Part shown: piece by piece, positions 2,346 to 48,970 of the stretch
Layout: each line of letters opens with the position of its first letter
How positions within the stretch are numbered: the stretch's first letter is position 1
Source of the DNA: Struthio camelus
Lineage: Eukaryota > Chordata > Aves > Struthioniformes > Struthionidae
Direction: 5' to 3'
Length of the DNA: 64,000 nucleotides
Assembly: GCF_040807025.1 (NCBI RefSeq)
Contig: NC_090944.1
Span: 118,498,738 to 118,562,737 of the forward strand
Program-made: the position numbers and the translations under genes
The notes under the pieces: generated by a model
The model's database searches: none
What the model saw: only the letters and a program-made list of their open reading frames with translations
What the model was told of the DNA's origin: nothing

Positions 2346-5214
2346 AACTATGAATTTCTAATATGAACAGCTGCAATATTGTAATGATTACATATCTGCT
2401 AAATATTTGCCCACGAAACACTTGAGAGTTCTCTCACAAGAACACACTATTACATTTAGAGGGAATTCTAAAGGTATTAGTGTTGTTTAGTGGGACACCT
2501 TACTTCCTCCTGTGTTAGGGCAGTGGACTAGACCTGGATCGGGAGGGGAAAAAAAAAGGAAAAGACAACTGTTCTTGCCTGAGGTGGTTACCCAAACAGT
2601 GCCTTTCTCTTCGTAAAAGATTTGCAAGATATACCCAAAATATTTCTATTGACTGTGATAATGACAATAGATACTTACGTTGTGCCTTATTTCAAAGTAT
2701 CACAACATTATTTAATTATTTTGTATTATTATATTACATGCACATTAAAATATGCATATTCATTTATATGCACATATCTCTGAGACAGAATGAAACTATG
2801 TAAGAGAAATGAATCTTTTCTTCACTGATGAAATGCAGGCCACATTGAGCTGGAACTCAGCAAACTACAGCATATAACATTATCACACAACAGTTCACTC
2901 AGGAACTAAATGATGCAAATCCAATTTTAACAGCACATGACATCTAGGTAAGGAGAAGGCCACTTACAACTGTTAATGTGACAGATCTTCCAGGCTCTTT
3001 CGGGTTCCTGTATCTCCAAAATTTATTTGAACCTTGATTTAGATCTCACCTGAAGGACATAGCCCTTATCAACACAACTTCTGTTAGTAGCACAACAATT
3101 TCTTTGCTGAGAATTGGCTCAGAGAAAAGCATGTGGGCCATCCAGTACATCTGTAAATATGCTGGAGGTGTTATACCTCTATTCTGAGCATGTCTCATCC
3201 CAGGTGAATCTGTGATCACCAATCTCTAGTAGAATTTTCAATAAACAGAAGCAGGAAGATGTATTGAAGATGATGTATTCACTGGTAAAAATTACCAGTG
3301 AATTTATTAGGACTAATTTCTCAGGAAAACAACCTGACAAATTTTATCTGCATTCCGACAGAAAATGCATCATCTCCACACTTCTCTGAGGGGAAAACTG
3401 ATCGCTAAGAACTTAAATATGATACATTTGTCTTCTGGCATTGCTTTGTTCATTCTTCTTATTCAGACCTGAAGCTCAAACACTTCAAATAGAACCTCCC
3501 GGCTGCCTCCTCATGAGTTTTACCCATTTCTTCCACATATACATTAGCCTCGCCACAAATTGTGGATAAGAACAGGGATCTTGAACCCATCTCAATCCCA
3601 CAAATCCAGGGATTGGGAGATCGGACATGCTGGCACAGGTCCAATACATTAAAATCTCACCACGAACTATTCCATTAAAAAGGAGATTTGCATAGAACAA
3701 GACTAGTCTAAAGGTGCAGCAGTACGTGCAGAGACAGGGAACACTTTCTCAGAGGCAGGAAACACGACTTGTGGCAAGAGCAATTTTAGGAGTAAGACAA
3801 GAAGCCCAAGTAAGCAGATGTTGTCTGCAAGGTCAGAAAGGTAAGTGCCAAGTTCACAAAACTGCAGTTTGTGTAGTGACACAGAACTTATTGCAGCACT
3901 TCTAGGGAGTCAACACCACCTGTGTCGGTTTCTATCTGTGATCAGCTTAAACTGTGACCTACAATCTTTTCCCCTTCACGCAGATCTCAGATTCCTGCAT
4001 ATGGAGATCTACACCATCTCTGCCTAGCACTAAGATTCTGAGAGGACAATCTGAAGGAAACCAAAGGGGTTTCTTAGCCCTGTTTTCCCCTTCCTGGGAA
4101 AACTATTTCATGACTATCAAGACTTAGAAACCTTGGCCTTTCACTTGTCTGGCTGATGTTTTTGCCCTATTGGCTATTTTTTTAAAACATTCATATTCAA
4201 GGGGAAATACATCAAACACTTATTTATTACTTGATTCATTTTGACCTTCTCTGGGGCCAAAAACATACATAGCACATCAAGCACAAGTTAATAGCATAGC
4301 CCCACCTCCACAAGCTCACAGGCCAAGTATACACAAAATGTGATGAATAACTGTGGCAGAAAGGAGCTTATTGATAAAAGGATAAAATAATTAACAATTG
4401 ATATACATATAGGTATTTAAGTATTTCATATGCAAATATATGAGGAAAGAGGAAAGAGGAAAGAGGAAAGAGGAAAGAGGAAAGAGGAAAGAGGAAAGAG
4501 GAAAGAGGAAAGAGGAAAGAGGAAAGAGGAAAGAGGAAAGAGGTCCCATTCATCATGCTCACTGTTTCCACAAGCTTATAGCTATTTCCACAGGAGGCCT
4601 AGATGGAGGATATATACCAAGCTAAGCAGCTGGTAATGTGTGGACAGGAGAGATGAAGGGAGTGATCCTACACGACACAATTGCACATATGCAAAATTAT
4701 ATCATAAATACTGGTCTAGGTACTGTAGCAATTTTAGCCAACTCCCCCCCATGGCCATACACCAATACACATGGATTTACTCAAGGAGCTAAAAGGGAGG
4801 AGCCTGCAATTAACACTGACTGGCACTACCTGTGCTCTGGTCCTACGTCATGCAGTTAAAATCTCCCTTCTGAGAGCCCAAGACTCCCATTTAAATTGAG
4901 GCCATGTCAAAGCAAACCAACAGCAGAATACATCCTGCTCAAAAAAGATTTCAGCCATAAAGCATATAGCTAATTTAGTTAGTTCTATATGAGTCATTTG
5001 CCTTTTACTTTTCTTTGTTCTGACTTTAACAAGCTATTTCTTTTTTTAAATGAGCATTAACCTTTATGTTATGCTAAATGTTAATTCACTCCATGAACTT
5101 AAAAATCATGCTTTCTTCTGCAAATGTTACAACTAACACTTAAGGCACTAGTCCTGCTACTGTTTGCAGATTCAGCCCTCAGCTCAAATACCAGGTGGCC
5201 TGGGTTTTCACACA
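2346..5214. other. Intergenic, no gene recognised
   Basis: AT-rich DNA between miR-217 and an old CR1 relic. Apart from the GGAAAGA satellite at 4442-4543 I see no exon, RNA gene or recognisable transposon. It may belong to the miR-217 host transcript, but no splice structure can be supported. Confidence 0.5.
4442..4543. repeat. (GGAAAGA)n tandem repeat
   Basis: About 102 bp of an almost perfect 7-bp unit (GGAAAGA or its rotation GAGGAAA), roughly 14-15 copies with no visible interruption. The strand is pure purine on + and pure pyrimidine on -, so it can form triplex (H-DNA) and is likely length-polymorphic. Because 7 is not a multiple of 3, several frames stay open across it, giving spurious low-complexity ORFs on both strands. 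Confidence 0.97.
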
Positions 5215-9919: not shown

Positions 9920-11114
9920 AAGGAGCCCTCTATGACAGAATAATTGACTGGGTAGATGAGGGGAGAGCAGTGAATGTTGTCTACTTTGACTTCAGTAAGG
10001 CTTTGGACAGTCTCCCATAACATCCTCATAGGCAAGCTAAGGAAGTGCAGGTTAGATGAGGGGATATTGAGGTGGATTGAGAACTGGCTGAATGGCAGCG
10101 CTCCGAGGGTTGTGATCAGTGGCACAAAGTCTAGTTGGAGGCCTGTAGCTAGTGGTGTTCCCTAGGGATCAATATTGGGTCCAGTCCTGTTCAACTTATT
10201 CCTCAGTGACCTGAATGAAGGGACAGAGTGCACCCTCTGCAAGTTTGCTGATGATACTAAACTGGGGGGAGGGGCTCATACCCCAGAGGGCTGTGCTGCC
10301 ATTCAGAGGGACCTGGACAGGCTGGAGAGCTGGGCGGAGAGGAACCTCATGAAATTCAACAAAGGCAAGTGCAGGGTCCGGCACCTAGGGAGGAATAACC
10401 CCACGCAGCAGTACAGGCTGGGGGCTGACCTGCTGGAAAACAGCTCTGCAGCCAAGGACCTGGGAGTCCAGGTGGATAAGTTAAGCACGAGCCAGCAGTG
10501 TGCCCTTGTGGCCAAGAAGGCCAGTGGTCTCCTGGGCTGCATTAGGCAGAGTGTTGCCAGCAGGTCGAGGGAGGTAATCCTCCCCCTCTCCTCAGCCCTG
10601 GTGAAGCCTCACCTGGAGTACTGTGTCCAGTTCTGGGCTCCCCAGGACAAGAGAGACATGGACATACTGGAACAAGTCCCGCGGAGGGCTACAAAGATGA
10701 TGAGGGGACTGGAGCACCTCTCCTATGAAGAAAAGCTGCGAGAGTTGGGACTGGCTTGAGCGGGGGGATCTTACCAATGTGCATTGTGCACAAATATCTG
10801 AAAAGAGGGTATAAAGAAGATGGGGCCAGACTTTTCTGAGTGGTGCCCAGTGATAGGATGACAGGCAACGGGCACAAACTAAAACACAGGAAGCTCCATC
10901 TGAACATGAGGAAAAACGCTTACTGTGAGGGTGACTAAGTACTGGAACAGGTTGCCTAGAGAGGTTGTGGAGTCTCCTTCCTTGGAGATATTCAAAATCC
11001 ATCTAAATAGGATCCTGGGCAACGTGCTCTAGGTGACCCTGCTTGAGCATGGGCATTGGGCTAGATGATCTCCAGAGGGCCCTTCCATCTTCAAGCATTC
11101 TGTGATTCTGTGAT
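9920..11114 (+). mobile_element. CR1 LINE fragment, copy A (5'-truncated)
   Basis: A 5'-truncated chicken-repeat-1 non-LTR retrotransposon. It keeps the reverse-transcriptase C-terminal half and the 3' tail: the RT frame shows a DFSKALDS-type segment near 9990, then GPVLFNLF, the FADD catalytic motif near 10242, and [19 protein letters not shown] and [10 protein letters not shown] segments. The 3' end has the diagnostic GATGATCTCCAGAGG and two ATTCTGTG units at 11097-11112. It is dead: a TAG at 10163-10165 replaces the Gln codon of the conserved PQG motif, and the last ~380 bp are heavily decayed and frameshifted. A 476-bp internal segment is identical to copy B at 21216-21691. Confidence 0.95.
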
Positions 11115-19000: not shown

Positions 19001-21189
19001 AAGGTCCTTACACTTTGCCTAAGTACGCTAAATGTGACTTACACAATAAATAAAGTGTGTTTTGGTGATCTAAACGTAGCCCACACGGACCACCTTTGAA
19101 ATATCTCAAAACTGCTATTCTTCAGGCCTACAACACAAACACACTTCCGGATTAATAGATTTTTTTACTAAATAATAACTGTGTTGGAAATGAAAATTAA
19201 TTGGATGAAGTGTGTCAAGAACCTGGAATAATCCCATCCAAAGTAATACTTTGTACTACAGCCATAAGCTACGATTTTCTACATAAAAGTATTCCATATT
19301 TATATATGCTTGTTCTAAAATAAATGTTCTGTCACTGCTAACAACTTCAAACCATTATTAGCTCTAAAGGAATGTTGTAAAACTACTCACCCTTGTATCT
19401 TCAGAGAAACAGAATTATGTACTCTTACAAAAATTTCCTAGTAATTGAAGAAGAAAGGAAGATTTTTGCATTACAGAATCTCCAAAGGAGGAAGGAAGGA
19501 AGCACTACAGCTATAGAAAAACAATCTCGTATTTCATAATAGTGCTGGACATATCCACAATGCCTTTTTTCATTTAATCGACATACCCAAGCATGCTGAG
19601 GAACTGTTTTTCTCAAAACCAATGCACGGCCATGACAGAACAGGCCGTGATCTTAGGGATGTGATTATATGTAAATGAAGTCCCACCGTCCCGTGCAATT
19701 GAAATTTAGGGACAGGAACTTCCCATCTAATCTTTTGGGAAGATAATGCAAGCCTGGTGTACCACAGTGCAAGACTCAAGAGGCTTCTGGCTTTTTCCTA
19801 TAGAGATACTTTTTTTGTGGGTAGACCCAAATTTCAGTCTGTGGAAAGAGTATAAACTAAGAAATAACACTGGTGAACTGAACTGAAGAAAAGGTTATAA
19901 CACAGTGCATTTTGGATGTGAAAAAAAGAAACAGGAGTCAAAGAAAACTCTCTGTAATAGACTTATGGAACAACCAAGAACGGCACATCTGTAATTCCTC
20001 ATCAAACGTCGCAGATGGAGTCTCACAGACTTTGGAAATGCTGGGCAAGAAGCATTCTCTAATAATTAGATTCCGAGACATGCATCGAATACATGCTTGC
20101 CAAAGGGACAGAATTTTATTATTTTACCTATATTTAACAGTACCTCATCACTGATCCCAATAGGACACATAAGGTATTTCTAAACCAGATCATATTACCA
20201 GAGGCAAGCTTTAGATGAAGTCCCTGACTAGAACATAAGCTACTGTTTAGTGGCCACTATTTAGTAATCCATCTGCATGGACCACTGTTCAGTCATGCAC
20301 TCCTACTTAGAGAAGCCCTGTAACTGCACAAAAAACCTGAAACAGTTTTAATCCCATTCATGTTACTAAGATTTGGGTACAAATAGAAGGTTTTCCATGT
20401 TTTTGTAAACTGAGACCATAAAGACAAATTTAGCGTTTTGTGATACCGGGCTTTGAAAATTGTCTTACAGTCTTCTGAAGTTTTGGGGCCCCATACAACT
20501 CCAAATATATTTTTTAAAAGCTTTAAAGCTGCATCAATTTGTCTTTCCTTACCTTTTCAGTTTTATCAATAGCTGATCCTACCTCATGAGTACTCTAAGT
20601 AGGAAAATCTCTAGGGATTTTTCCAGTTACCACATAAATATGCATCATGCCATTTACACTGCTGATACATAATATCCTCCTTTAGAGAATTACATGACAT
20701 ATACGCACACATGCAGGCACGTATTCCACGTTTTACAGCTTTCTCCTTACAAGTAATTGTTTGAAAGATTTCTCCCATTTACAGGAACTTTTATTACAAA
20801 ATTTATTTTTCATGTAGTTCTACTCATAAACTGAGGTGCTCTCATCACAAAACCACCATTTGAGAAGGTAGGACTAAATCTTATCTTTGCAGACTTTCTC
20901 AATGGAGAGACTAAACTAGGCATGAAGAACTGCCTTCTTTATAACTAGACACTTCCCTGTAACTGAGATTAGGACAATGTCAGAGAGTAGTCTTGAGCAC
21001 CTGCATGACAACTGTCTGTACTGTGCCTATTAGTCTGAAATCCTCGCTCTTCATCAATCTTGTAATATAAAGGAGTTAATAGTCACAAACCCTCGCATAC
21101 GTACGCACACTAGTTACATTCTAATTTCACAGAGGGTGAGAGGTGATTCTGAACTAGTGCTATGTTTAGCAATTATTGCAGTTTCCTGA

Positions 21190-28200: not shown

Positions 28201-29100
28201 TTTCTGAAGGAGCCAAAAGTAAATAAAAGTAATCAGAGGCCAGCCACACAGGGCTGTTCCTGATGGGAAAAATGATAGGAGCAACTAGCAGTAGGGGTTG
28301 GCCTCAGCTACACGACATTGTATGGTCAGCAAGACAGAACGGATGGTTTGACCAATTCTTACATGACATCTGCAGACATATTTTAAATATGTAAAATTAG
28401 TTCTACTGCTGAGCAACACAGATAGCTCAAGTATTTCCCACCATTCCCAGGGTTTAAATCCTGCTATCCTACATCAGGCATATGTCCAATTGCTTCAGTA
28501 GGAAGTACCTGAACTACAGAATTATGGGCTGATTCTATTACTTCCATTTAAAGGATCAAGAACAATCCTTGGCAGAGTACAGTATTTCAGCAAACAAAAA
28601 AGAACTAAAGAACCAACGAAAGGACCATCCAAAAAAGAACTCATGTTTACGTAATTTCTATAAAGTCACTCTCTAGGCCAGCTGTGCCAGAGATCTGCAA
28701 CTGGGTATGACAACTTTTCAGGAGCTCTCAGAGAGATCGGCTTGTCTAGGAAGGAGAAAGAGGTTCCAGGCCCTTCACAGTCAATATTAAAAAGGTAAAA
28801 GCTCTTAAAAAATTAAGGGCCTCATGGGTTCAGCTAAGACAGCAAAAAAGGGGAGAGCTGCACTACCCCAGCACAGCACATTGACCCCAACAACAAAGCT
28901 GGGGGGGCCTAAAAAAATAGGCAGATTCTCTTTAGGTAGAAAGAACTCTTTGGCCCAGTTGCTTACCGGCTCCTCACCCCAAGCAGCCCACCTACAACCC
29001 TTTCTCAGTCCCCATAACAGCCCTTCCTCCACCAGCTCCAGGCCACCCAGGACCGGCACGACCCACTTCCCCCTCTCGGGGTGACTGTGGGGTCGTTGTT
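22250..29100. other. Intergenic region upstream of the EFEMP1 CpG island
   Basis: A 21-nt T-run lies at 22283-22303, just 3' of CR1 copy B. Otherwise this ~6.8 kb is AT-rich and contains no exon or transposon I can name. ORFs at 23456-23791 (-) and 24538-24873 (+) lack domains; a KPYEC string in the latter only superficially resembles a zinc-finger linker. Distal EFEMP1 enhancers could be here, but none can be demonstrated by reading. Confidence 0.5.
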
Positions 29101-29189
29101 GCTGCAGCCACTCCTGCCATCCATCCCCTGCCACCCCGCTGCCTCCCGCGCTCCCTGGGCGGCAGCCACCACCGCCACTGGCCCAGCCC

Positions 29190-30003
29190 TCGCACGCCCA
29201 AGATGGCAGCGGGGCACCCCGCACCTGCCCGGCCCCGACCCGGCCCTCGCACGCCCAAGATGGCAGCAGGGCACCCCACACCTGCCGGGCCCCGACCCGG
29301 CCCTCGCACGCCCAAGATGGCAGCGGGGCGCGCCGCACCTGCCCGGCCTGACCCAGCCCTCGCAGCCCAAAATGGCGGCGGGGTGCCCCGCACCTGCCTG
29401 GCCCCAGCCCGGCCCTCGCAGCCCAAAATGGCGGCGGGGTGCCCCGCACCTGCCTGGCCCCAGCCCGGCCCTCGCAGCCCAAAATGGTGGTGGGGCACCC
29501 CGCACCTGCCCGGCCCCAACCCGGCCCTCGCACGCCCAAGATGGCGGCAGGGCACCCCGCACCTGCCCGGCCCCGACCCGGCCCTCGCACGCCCAAGATG
29601 GCAGCGGGGCACCCCGCACCTGCCGGGCCCCAGCCCGGCCCTCGCAGCCCAAAATGGCGGCGGGGCACCCCGCACCTGCCGGGCCCCAGCCCGGCCCTCG
29701 CAGCCCAAAATGGCGGCGGGGTGCCCCGCACCTGCCTGGCCCCAGCCCGGCCCTCGCAGCCCAAAATGGTGGTGGGGCACCCCGCACCTGCCCGGCCCCG
29801 ACCCGGCCCTCGCAGCCCAAAATGGTGGTGGGGCACCCCGCACCTGCCCGGCCCCGACCCGGCCCTCGCACACTCAAGATGGTGGTGGGGCACCCCGCAC
29901 CTGCCCGGCCCCGACCCGGCCCTCGCACACTCAAGATGGTGGCAGGGCACCCCGCACCTGCCCCGCCGCAGCCCGGCCCTCGCAGCCCAAAATGGCGGCG
30001 GGG
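29190..30003. repeat. GC-rich 55-57-bp minisatellite with YY1-like and CACCTG boxes
   Basis: Fifteen tandem units, recognised by ATGG at 29203, 29260, 29317, 29372, 29428, 29484, 29541, 29598, 29654, 29710, 29766, 29822, 29879, 29936 and 29992. Each unit contains AAGATGGC or AAAATGG and the box GCACCTGCC (ACACCTGCC in unit 2). Six units (ATG at 29372, 29428, 29541, 29654, 29710, 29992) carry the full AAAATGGCGGC or AAGATGGCGGC core, which equals the YY1 consensus; the others have GGCAG or GGTGG in its place. CACCTG is in all 15 and fits ZEB/SNAI-type E-boxes. The array ends ~290 bp before the probable first exon. Frames are open on both strands only because the unit is stop-poor. Confidence 0.95.
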
Positions 30004-30289
30004 CGCTGGGCCGCACCTGCCCCGCCTGGCCCGGCCCGGCGGCCGCGGGCAGCGCCGCTCGGCGGCGCCACGCGGCACTTCGGGGCGTGACGGCGGCCTC
30101 GCCGCCGCCTTCGCCACCTCGACCGGCAGCGGGGAACAGCGCGGGGCAGCGGCGGGGGCCGTGCCCGGCTGCCCCGCCCGGTCGCCCGCCGCGCGGAAGG
30201 GGCCAGGCGGCCGCGGCCCCGGCAGGGGGCGCCCGGGGCCCCGGCGCAGCCGGCACCGTTTGTATTTAGCCGAGGGCCCGCGGGGGGAG

Positions 30290-30456
30290 GGAGAGTGAGC
30301 GAGGCGGCGGGCAGGCAGGCGCCGGCACCACAGCGGAGCCAGCCAGCGAGCAGGCGGGCGGAGGGGGCCGATCCACCGCGGTGACCCGCCGCCGGGAGCA
30401 GCTCCACTCGGCGCGGAGCGGCCCCGCCAGGAGAGCCCCGGGCGCCGCGGCCGCAG
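30290..30456 (+). other. EFEMP1: Probable EFEMP1 first exon (5' UTR, non-coding)
   Basis: The 3' boundary is a good splice donor, GCCGCAG|GTAGGAG, with GT at 30457-30458. No start codon that extends into the EFEMP1 frame lies here, in keeping with the non-coding first exon of mammalian EFEMP1 as I recall. The 5' end is a guess placed just 3' of the TATA-like TTTGTATTTAG. A second donor with the same 12-mer CGCAGGTAGGAG occurs at 31128-31139 and could serve an alternative first exon. Confidence 0.5.
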
Positions 30457-31259
30457 GTAGGAGCCGGCGGCGCGGGCAGGCTCTGCGGGGCGCTGCGGCC
30501 CGGCTCGGCCCGGCGCTGCCAACCCAACCCCACCCCGGCGGGGCGCCCCGGGGGCCCGGCTGGCCGGCGCGGGGCCGAGGGCAGGGCGCGGCCCGGGACG
30601 GCGGGGCACGGCGGCCCCGGGCTGAGCAGGTGCCCGGCGGGCGGTGCGGCGGGGCTGGGGACGGGACGGGACAGCAGAGCGGGCGGTGCGCGGGGGATCG
30701 GTTCGCCCTGGCCCCGGCTCCGGCCCCCGCCGGGCGTGTGGCGCTGTCGCGGCGCCGGTGGCATCGAGGTGCCGCGGGCGCGGCGGCGGCGGCGGAGCCG
30801 CTGCGCCCGGCGAGGCGGGTCGCGCTGTAAACGTGCCCGCGTCGCCCCGGCTCGCTCCGCTTGCGCGGGGTGGCGTTCGCCGAAAAACTGCTTTGCCACC
30901 CAAATCGTGCAGTCGCAAGATCGCCGTTGCGCTACGCGGTGCTCGCTCAGGAGCCTTCCAGGCTGCGACGCTGTGAGTTGAGTGTGGGACTAGCTGCTAC
31001 CTCGTTTTAAAGCGGGTTTTCCCCCCCCCCCCCCCCTTCTTCAGCTGAATAAGATATAACGGAGTGGAAACGCTGGCAAGCCTTAGCCGCTTCTTAAATT
31101 CCAAAGGGCTACGTCCTGGCCTCTTCGCGCAGGTAGGAGTTCAGCAGGCGTTTTGCACTAGTAATGAGTGCAGGACCTGTTCCCAGAGGCGGTGACTGTG
31201 TTTTCTAGCGAAGAAGTGCTAAAAATATTTCTGGTGTATTTGTTGTTCTTTCTTTCAAG
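30457..31259 (+). other. EFEMP1: Probable EFEMP1 intron 1
   Basis: About 800 bp between the proposed first exon and the signal-peptide exon. It is CpG-rich up to about 30.96 kb, then carries a 16-nt C-run (31021-31036). The acceptor before 31260 has a good pyrimidine tract (TTGTTGTTCTTTCTTTCAAG). Confidence 0.55.
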
Positions 31260-31347
31260 GTTCATGATGTTGACAGCTATGGTCTTGGCCGCTTTCATTC
31301 TTATTACAGTACATTCACAGGAAACTGAGGAAACCATAACATACACG
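31260..31347 (+). CDS. EFEMP1: EFEMP1 coding exon 1: signal peptide
   Basis: The coding part starts at the ATG at 31264 and gives 28 residues, MMLTAMVLAAFILITVHS followed by QETEETITYT. The first ~18 are a hydrophobic signal peptide; cleavage probably falls before QETEE, as in mammals. The segment ETEETITYT matches the mature N-terminus of fibulin-3 as I know it, which is what identifies the exon. The acceptor is CAAG|G at 31259/31260 and the donor is ACACG|GTAAGG (GT at 31348). Phase 0 at the 3' end. A second ATG directly follows the first, so initiation could occur at 31264 or 31267. Confidence 0.93.
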
Positions 31348-31926: not shown

Positions 31927-31953
31927 TTTTTTTTTTTTTTTTTTTTTTTTTTT
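31927..31953. repeat. T27 homopolymer
   Basis: Twenty-seven consecutive T followed by CCTCCCCC, inside the EFEMP1 intron. Not adjacent to any recognisable SINE. Confidence 0.95.
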
Positions 31954-34359: not shown

Positions 34360-34530
34360 GTACAGTAAGTCATTGTCAAAGAAAGACTTGTCATTGGAAT
34401 TCTTTTAGTATTGCCATTACACATCCCTGGACAAAGAGGTGTGCTTGCATGTCATTGTATTACTTGTATTAATGGCTGTTGCAGAATGTTCCACTGTTAA
34501 AAGCATGACTTGTGTTGTTGCTAACCACAG
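34360..34530 (+). other. EFEMP1: EFEMP1 short intron
   Basis: A 171-bp intron between coding exons 2 and 3, GT at 34360 and AG at 34529-34530 (CTAACCACAG). CTAAC near 34521 could be the branch site, although it is close to the AG. Nothing else is visible in it. Confidence 0.9.
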
Positions 34531-34794
34531 ATATTGATGAATGTGAAATAGTCCCAGATGCATGTAAAGGTGGTATGAAATGTGTTAACCACTATGGAGG
34601 ATACCTATGTCTACCTAGAACAGCCCAAATTATTGTAAATGAACGAGAAGAAGCAGCAGCAGCTGAATCCACTAGTGGTCGAAATAATGTAATTCGACGG
34701 ACTCCTGTTGATCCTCACCGTGCCCCTCCAAACCCAACTCATCAAATACAGTGTGCAGCTGGTTATGAACAAAGCGATCACAATGTGTGCCAAG
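34531..34794 (+). CDS. EFEMP1: EFEMP1 coding exon 3: atypical calcium-binding EGF domain 1
   Basis: A 264-bp exon encoding cbEGF1. It opens with the calcium-binding DIDEC motif (D completed by the previous exon), then cysteines in DAC, MKC and YLC, including the Asn-hydroxylation-type pattern [10 protein letters not shown]. Between cysteines 4 and 5 lies a charged, Ala-rich insert, with [16 protein letters not shown] at its centre, before [15 protein letters not shown] supplies cysteines 5 and 6. The insert is about 47 residues; the human one is about 88 as I recall, so this version is roughly half as long. Donor CCAAG|GTAAGC (GT at 34795). Phase 1, matching a following DIDEC exon that is not in the window. 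Confidence 0.95.
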
Positions 34795-35366: not shown

Positions 35367-35411
35367 GGGGGGGTGGGCGGGGTTCCTCCCTTCCCCCCCC
35401 CCCCCCCCCCC
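35367..35411. repeat. G-run / C19 tract
   Basis: Seven G, then GGGCGGGG, then TTCCTCCCTT and a run of nineteen C (35393-35411). The G and C halves are complementary enough to form a hairpin, and each strand has quadruplex or i-motif potential. Length is likely polymorphic or poorly sequenced. Confidence 0.9.
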
Positions 35412-48743: not shown

Positions 48744-48970
48744 CAGAATCACAGAATTAATTCAGGTGGGAAGGGACCTCAGGAGGTCTCTAGTCCAACC
48801 TGCTGAAAGCAGGGTCAGCTCCTCAGAGCAGGGCTTTATCCAGTCGAGTCTTGAAAACTTCTCTGGATGGAGACTGCACAACCTTTATGGGCTACCTGTT
48901 CTGCTTCTTGACTGCCCTAACAGTGAAAAAGTTTTCCCTTATATTGAATTGGAACCTCTTTTATTTAAAT
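48744..48970 (-). mobile_element. CR1 LINE 3' fragment, antisense
   Basis: Starts on + with the inverted tail CAGAATCACAGAATTA, then GGTGGGAAGGGACCTC, TCTAGTCCAACC and the antisense coding end with GACTGCACAACC and CCTGTTCTGCTTCTTGAC. This is the standard 3' end of a CR1 read backwards. Moderately diverged; inserted opposite to EFEMP1 transcription. Confidence 0.92.

Follow-up and report, generated by a model that had tools for sequence, protein, structure and literature searches.

YY1 binding has been reported at the DXZ4 macrosatellite. Tandem YY1 sites are also in print for the Peg3-DMR (PMC4361396) and for repeats in the DMRs of Peg3 and Gnas (PMC3091771), so that the precedents invoked in a first-pass annotation of the DNA described here are fair ones. 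Methylation-sensitive binding of YY1 at Peg3 is the subject, by its title, of a reference cited in one of them (PMC4361396). In chicken DT40 cells, excerpts of a further report describe two same-strand pG4s as sufficient for an efficient minimal origin, origins as enriched in clustered pG4s, and such clusters as comprising 2 to 6 members (PMC10415359). YY1 is stated, in part of another study, to bind G-quadruplexes (G4s) in human cells and to limit recombination at them (PMC11260479). The human G-rich minisatellite CEB1 is described as unstable in yeast lacking Pif1 (in a portion of PMC2673046). Birds are described as having no PRDM9, with recombination concentrated near TSSs and CpG islands (in a portion of PMC5519329).

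The locus considered here is a period-56 tandem repeat in a window of ostrich DNA (the whole stretch that was analyzed, 64,000 nucleotides), placed by Tandem Repeats Finder at 29182-30004 with 14.6 copies, 91% matches and a score of 1156. Cutting at a shared word, CCCTCGCA, which defines the start of each unit and whose CpG is thus intact by construction, yields 15 head-to-tail units of 56-58 bp (eight of the 14 spacings are 56 bp and six are 57 bp), the array end being our own cut with the last unit taken as 58 bases (Table 1). Head-to-tail tandem units of this length fall within the range of about 10-100 bp that defines a minisatellite, and the repeat structure is far beyond chance. The first-pass annotation had described a 15-unit tandem minisatellite with same-orientation motifs, upstream of the probable first exon of EFEMP1. 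Tandem Repeats Finder and unit cutting confirm the 15 units and the motif inventory given below bears out the rest of the description, with the location now specified as the upstream edge of a CpG island; only the extent needed correction, the true end lying about 30 bp beyond the one given there. In the remaining window, no blastn match to the array was found at E up to 0.1, and degenerate units could not be detected in about 106 bp of flanking sequence to the left or right (local scores were 9 and 14, and shuffled sequence averaged 11.0 and 13.9). Exact pattern scans returned 23 loci in viral contigs and two in bacterial and archaeal genomes, with one match apiece and hence no arrays. Among the matches listed from the open-access literature, as judged by titles and abstract openings, none describes YY1 sites in tandem at the EFEMP1 promoter of a bird. 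Long stop-free frames span both strands of the array, but a coding sequence was rejected as an explanation, because the 56-bp spacings are not a multiple of three and the reading frame therefore shifts along the array; the length of these frames is probably due to G+C richness.

The gene downstream of the array is probably EFEMP1 (fibulin-3). Domain matches are consistent with this, the best PDB match of the stretch at 34521-34700 being fibulin-4 (E=1.7e-15), and the core promoter and a non-coding exon 1 of EFEMP1 presumably lie downstream of the TATA-like GTATTTA. Homopolymer runs within the probable EFEMP1 (C at 31021-31036, T at 31927-31953 and a broken C run at 35388-35411, + strand) are possibly assembly-sensitive. 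A miR-217 precursor (2250-2342, + strand; RF00673, E=2.4e-22), some 29 kb before the point where EFEMP1 coding begins, was the sole match in an Rfam scan of the window at gathering thresholds; EFEMP1 and MIR217 are neighbors in human and other mammals, with which the position of miR-217 agrees. Other repeats are found in the window. Four CR1-like 3' ends carrying ATTCTRTGATTCT, which we take to be the CR1 tail motif, lie at 11097, 22233 and 57717 (+) and at 48757 (-), as fits a bird. Stretches at 10-11 kb and 21-22 kb are GC-rich (0.53) relative to their surroundings, and a perfect 7-bp tandem repeat (GAGGAAA, 14.6 copies, 4442-4543, 100% matches) is probably recent and polymorphic.

Table 1. 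Positions of the array, its motifs and the presumed EFEMP1 features in the window.
Feature	Position	Strand	Basis or remark
Minisatellite array	29187..30034	+	15 units (56-58 bp), consensus ~CCCTCGCA(C)GCCCAARATGGCGGCGGGGCACCCCGCACCTGCCCGGCCCCRACCCGG; Tandem Repeats Finder and unit alignment
First of 15 CACCTG boxes	29222..29227 (last box starts 30014)	+	motif positions
14 non-overlapping canonical G-quadruplex motifs, about one per unit	29233..29988	-	motif scan
Full AAAATGGCGGC core, unit 4	29369..29379	+	motif positions
Other AAAATGGCGGC cores, starts	29425, 29651, 29707, 29989	+	motif positions
AAGATGGCGGC core, start	29538	+	motif positions
CpG island adjoining array	30035..30900		CpG o/e 1.02
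TATA-like GTATTTA	30262..30268	+	sequence position; 228 bp past array end
Splice-donor-like GTAGGAG	30457	+	inferred, after presumed non-coding exon 1
Probable EFEMP1 first coding exon, signal peptide MMLTAMVLAAFILITVHSQETEETITYT	31264..31347	+	judged by likeness to EFEMP1
Calcium-binding EGF stretch, probable EFEMP1 exon, approximate ends	34521..34700	+	Pfam EGF_CA E=3.4e-8

All 15 units carry both AA(A/G)ATGG and CACCTG on the + strand, with no reverse-strand occurrence of either motif within the array. A full A(A/G)ATGGCGGC core is present in six units, as AAAATGGCGGC in five and as AAGATGGCGGC in one, and the remaining nine have GGCAGC (units 1, 2, 3 and 8) or GGTGG variants (units 6, 11, 12, 13 and 14). 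Outside the array, ATGGCGGC occurs on neither strand of the window. The motifs are presumed to be those of YY1 and ZEB by comparison with their general consensus sequences, and by that YY1 consensus the array holds several tandem YY1 sites in one orientation. When a single CpG-rich unit, composed by us from the alignment, was shuffled 5000 times with its dinucleotides preserved, AARATGGCGGC arose on either strand in 0.02% of shuffles, ATGGCGGC in 1.6% and CACCTG in 3.2%. A good YY1 match in the unit is uncommon if that motif alone is considered, yet many motifs could have caught notice. The 15 motifs are most likely copies of one unit and not independent events, so their 15-fold repetition adds no further evidence.

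Whether motif columns are conserved above the spacers was assessed on the 15 units aligned with MAFFT, a stray CCCTCGCA at 21090 being left out; because MAFFT puts the tails of units 3 and 15 in the wrong place, the tests were also run with the tail columns, or these two units, removed. Among the 55 ungapped columns, 18 are variable. The YY1 12-mer contains four variable columns out of 12, against 14 of 43 elsewhere (p=1), and ATGGCGGC three of eight, against 15 of 47 (p=1). ATGG alone has none in four columns, against 18 of 51 (p=0.29), and CACCTG is invariant without reaching significance (0/6 against 18/49, p=0.16); jointly, the YY1 12-mer and CACCTG have 4/18 against 14/37 (p=0.36). In the two reduced sets, YY1 conservation gave p=0.71 and 0.72, and no tested motif reached significance without the tail columns or without units 3 and 15. 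Parsimony steps per column, counted on an NJ unit tree that is approximate wherever gene conversion occurs, came to 0.75 for YY1, 0.78 for the spacers and 0 for the six columns of CACCTG. Motif columns did not have significantly fewer steps on this tree (permutation p=0.24), and in a rotation null 23 of the 55 placements had as few steps as the motif columns or fewer. The array thus shows no clear sign of motif preservation, and selection on the motif columns as shown by conservation was rejected on column counts, tree steps, reduced sets and rotation null alike, with weak constraint on the motifs being something that a low-power test (15 related units, 18 variable columns) may leave room for. 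The conserved cores and more variable spacers described in the first-pass annotation, which itself left room for an expansion by mutation only, are accordingly not found. Divergence is also not uniform, as that annotation had expected of a neutral minisatellite; it is uneven across the unit, but the unevenness tracks CpG context, not motifs.

Variable columns are concentrated at CpGs (15 of 24, against 3 of 31 other columns; p=4.5e-5), a bias inflated to some extent by CpG-creating variants, since a column was counted as CpG when any unit has a CpG there. The excess persists without the poorly aligned tail (11/18 against 2/29, p=9.6e-5) and without units 3 and 15 (10/19 against 5/37, p=0.003). 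Pure transitions account for 11 of the 18 variable columns overall, for 10 of 13 without the tail and for 12 of 15 without the two units. On the tree, CpG columns took 1.29 parsimony steps each and other columns 0.23 (permutation p=0.00025), and the three CpG columns of the YY1 12-mer took 2.33 each, the figure for the remaining CpG columns being 1.14. Counts of CG, TG and CA among the 15 units, which overstate mutational events in that the units share descent, are 6/5/4 at sites 21-22, 8/4/3 at 24-25 and 2/3/10 at 29-30, a mixture to be expected when methylated cytosines are deaminated on one strand or the other; sites 21-22 fall inside the YY1 12-mer, and 24-25 share its final base. Decay is uneven among CpGs, with CG found in 14 of 15 units at 37-38, in 13 at 58-59 and in only two at 29-30. 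The constancy of CACCTG needs no special cause, because this box contains no CpG and 28 of the 31 non-CpG columns are likewise constant. In the upstream direction, CpG o/e declines step by step, being 1.02 in the island, 0.68 in the array, and 0.47 (29001-29186) and then 0.17 (28500-29000) in the 5' flanks. The array may therefore just be situated on the shore of the island. Altogether, the variation is most simply explained by methyl-CpG decay, the YY1 site included, and this mutation pattern points to probable methylation of the array in the germline.

On the opposite strand, the array is rich in G4 motifs: 14 were observed, whereas 300 dinucleotide-shuffled versions of the entire array averaged 3.4 (maximum 9). 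With all 14 on the minus strand, the array contains two or more pG4s that share a strand and are less than 100 bp apart, the spacing by which clusters are recognized. However, when a single shuffled unit was repeated in tandem, a G4 motif appeared in 21.5% of 5000 shuffles, so that composition and repetition largely explain these motifs. For antisense RNA of two units, the predicted folding energy was -64.8 with a G4 and -63.2 without, a gain of only 1.6 kcal/mol. By analogy with the systems introduced above, an array of G4s is a candidate source of minisatellite instability and a candidate site of origin activity.

The array also bears traces of its growth. A 118-bp segment (29400..29517, + strand) recurs exactly at 29682-29799, a shift of 282 bp, and a 76-bp exact repeat is found at shifts of 56 and 338 bp; these exact repeats indicate that multi-unit blocks were duplicated. 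In the one haplotype represented, such block duplications suggest past copy-number change, and the repeat pattern together with the clean flanks fits unequal exchange or gene conversion. Given where avian recombination is concentrated, the edge of a promoter island would be a natural place for recombination-driven growth of this kind.

The array is probably an ordinary GC-rich, G4-prone minisatellite that borders the EFEMP1 CpG island on its upstream side and in which the motifs are hitch-hikers decaying at their CpGs. One unit of 56-57 bp would have been expanded by repeated unequal exchange or slippage, including duplications of multi-unit blocks, and growth would have been driven by recombination, by replication trouble at G4s, or by both. 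A YY1-like site together with a CACCTG box would by chance have been present in the founding unit and so have been passed on to every copy. After expansion, the copies would have diverged mainly at CpGs, through methyl-CpG deamination that would also have affected the YY1 site. The motifs would then have no essential role. Against this account stand the invariance of CACCTG and ATGG in 15/15 units and the full YY1 core in six, which are compatible with constraint, and the array may yet serve to bind YY1, to fire an origin or to tune the promoter.

An unlikely alternative is that the array is regulatory, with YY1 on unmethylated units and ZEB/SNAI on CACCTG, its copy number tuning EFEMP1 and methylation of the CpGs in the YY1 core blocking binding as for Peg3. 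The retention of AA(A/G)ATGG and CACCTG in every unit and in one orientation, the adjoining promoter and the tandem YY1 sites of the Peg3 and Gnas regions all speak for it, but the YY1 columns are not more conserved than others, the CpGs of the YY1 core are among the more decayed sites (CG kept in only six and eight of the 15 units) and the full core has been lost in 9/15 sites. We also know of no demonstration of imprinting in birds, which counts against this alternative. Attention to the other strand leads to an equally doubtful proposal, in which the G4 array would be an early replication origin or a nucleosome-free region at the CpG island, and YY1 would bind the G4s instead of, or besides, the duplex motif. 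Fourteen same-strand pG4 motifs lie within 756 bp, two are described as enough for a minimal origin in DT40 cells (PMC10415359), and the binding of G4s by YY1 in human cells is described in part of a report (PMC11260479), yet the motifs largely follow from G+C richness, as the shuffled units indicate, and the RNA folds to nearly equal energy with or without a G4.

Both strands are combined in a composite reading to which we give very little weight, and which is based on the binding of G4s and suppression of recombination by YY1 in human cells, as described in part of PMC11260479. Each unit, with a YY1 site and a same-strand G-quadruplex, would belong to a copy-number-tunable, methylation-switchable hub setting both EFEMP1 expression and origin firing, and YY1 on the G4s would restrain recombination of the array. 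That a dispersed avian repeat or a transposon-derived tandem was inserted at this site is scarcely credible: CR1-like 3' ends do occur elsewhere in the window, but nothing ties CR1 to the array, the flanks hold no degenerate units and blastn found no second copy in the remaining window.

If the array is the hitch-hiking minisatellite favored here, it shows how tandem expansion turns one site into a striking "transcription-factor array", and how CpG decay can help separate hitch-hiking from constraint. If instead the composite reading were true, the locus could offer a natural copy-number series for G4- and YY1-dependent control of promoters and origins in birds.

Among the known systems, DXZ4 resembles the array in being a tandem repeat that is GC-rich (in primates), with CTCF binding in print (in a paper that names YY1 nowhere in its main text and once in its full text), but its units are kilobases long, are located on the X chromosome and are tied to X inactivation, whereas those of the array are 56-bp units. 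The Peg3-DMR similarly has several tandem YY1-like sites, with CpGs inside or touching them (in passages of PMC4361396); these sites, however, are located within intron 1 of a mammalian gene that is imprinted, whereas the array is upstream of a promoter and its cores are not preferentially conserved. The chicken promoter origins at beta-A-globin and med14 share with it several one-strand G4 motifs near a promoter (in excerpts of PMC10415359), but they are clustered-pG4 origins, and the array is a 15-unit minisatellite. Human CEB1, CEB25 and HRAS1 are, like the array, GC-rich tandem repeats with a G-rich strand, and the instability of CEB1 in yeast is reported to be linked to G4s. These three are described as human and subtelomeric, whereas the ostrich array adjoins a promoter CpG island.
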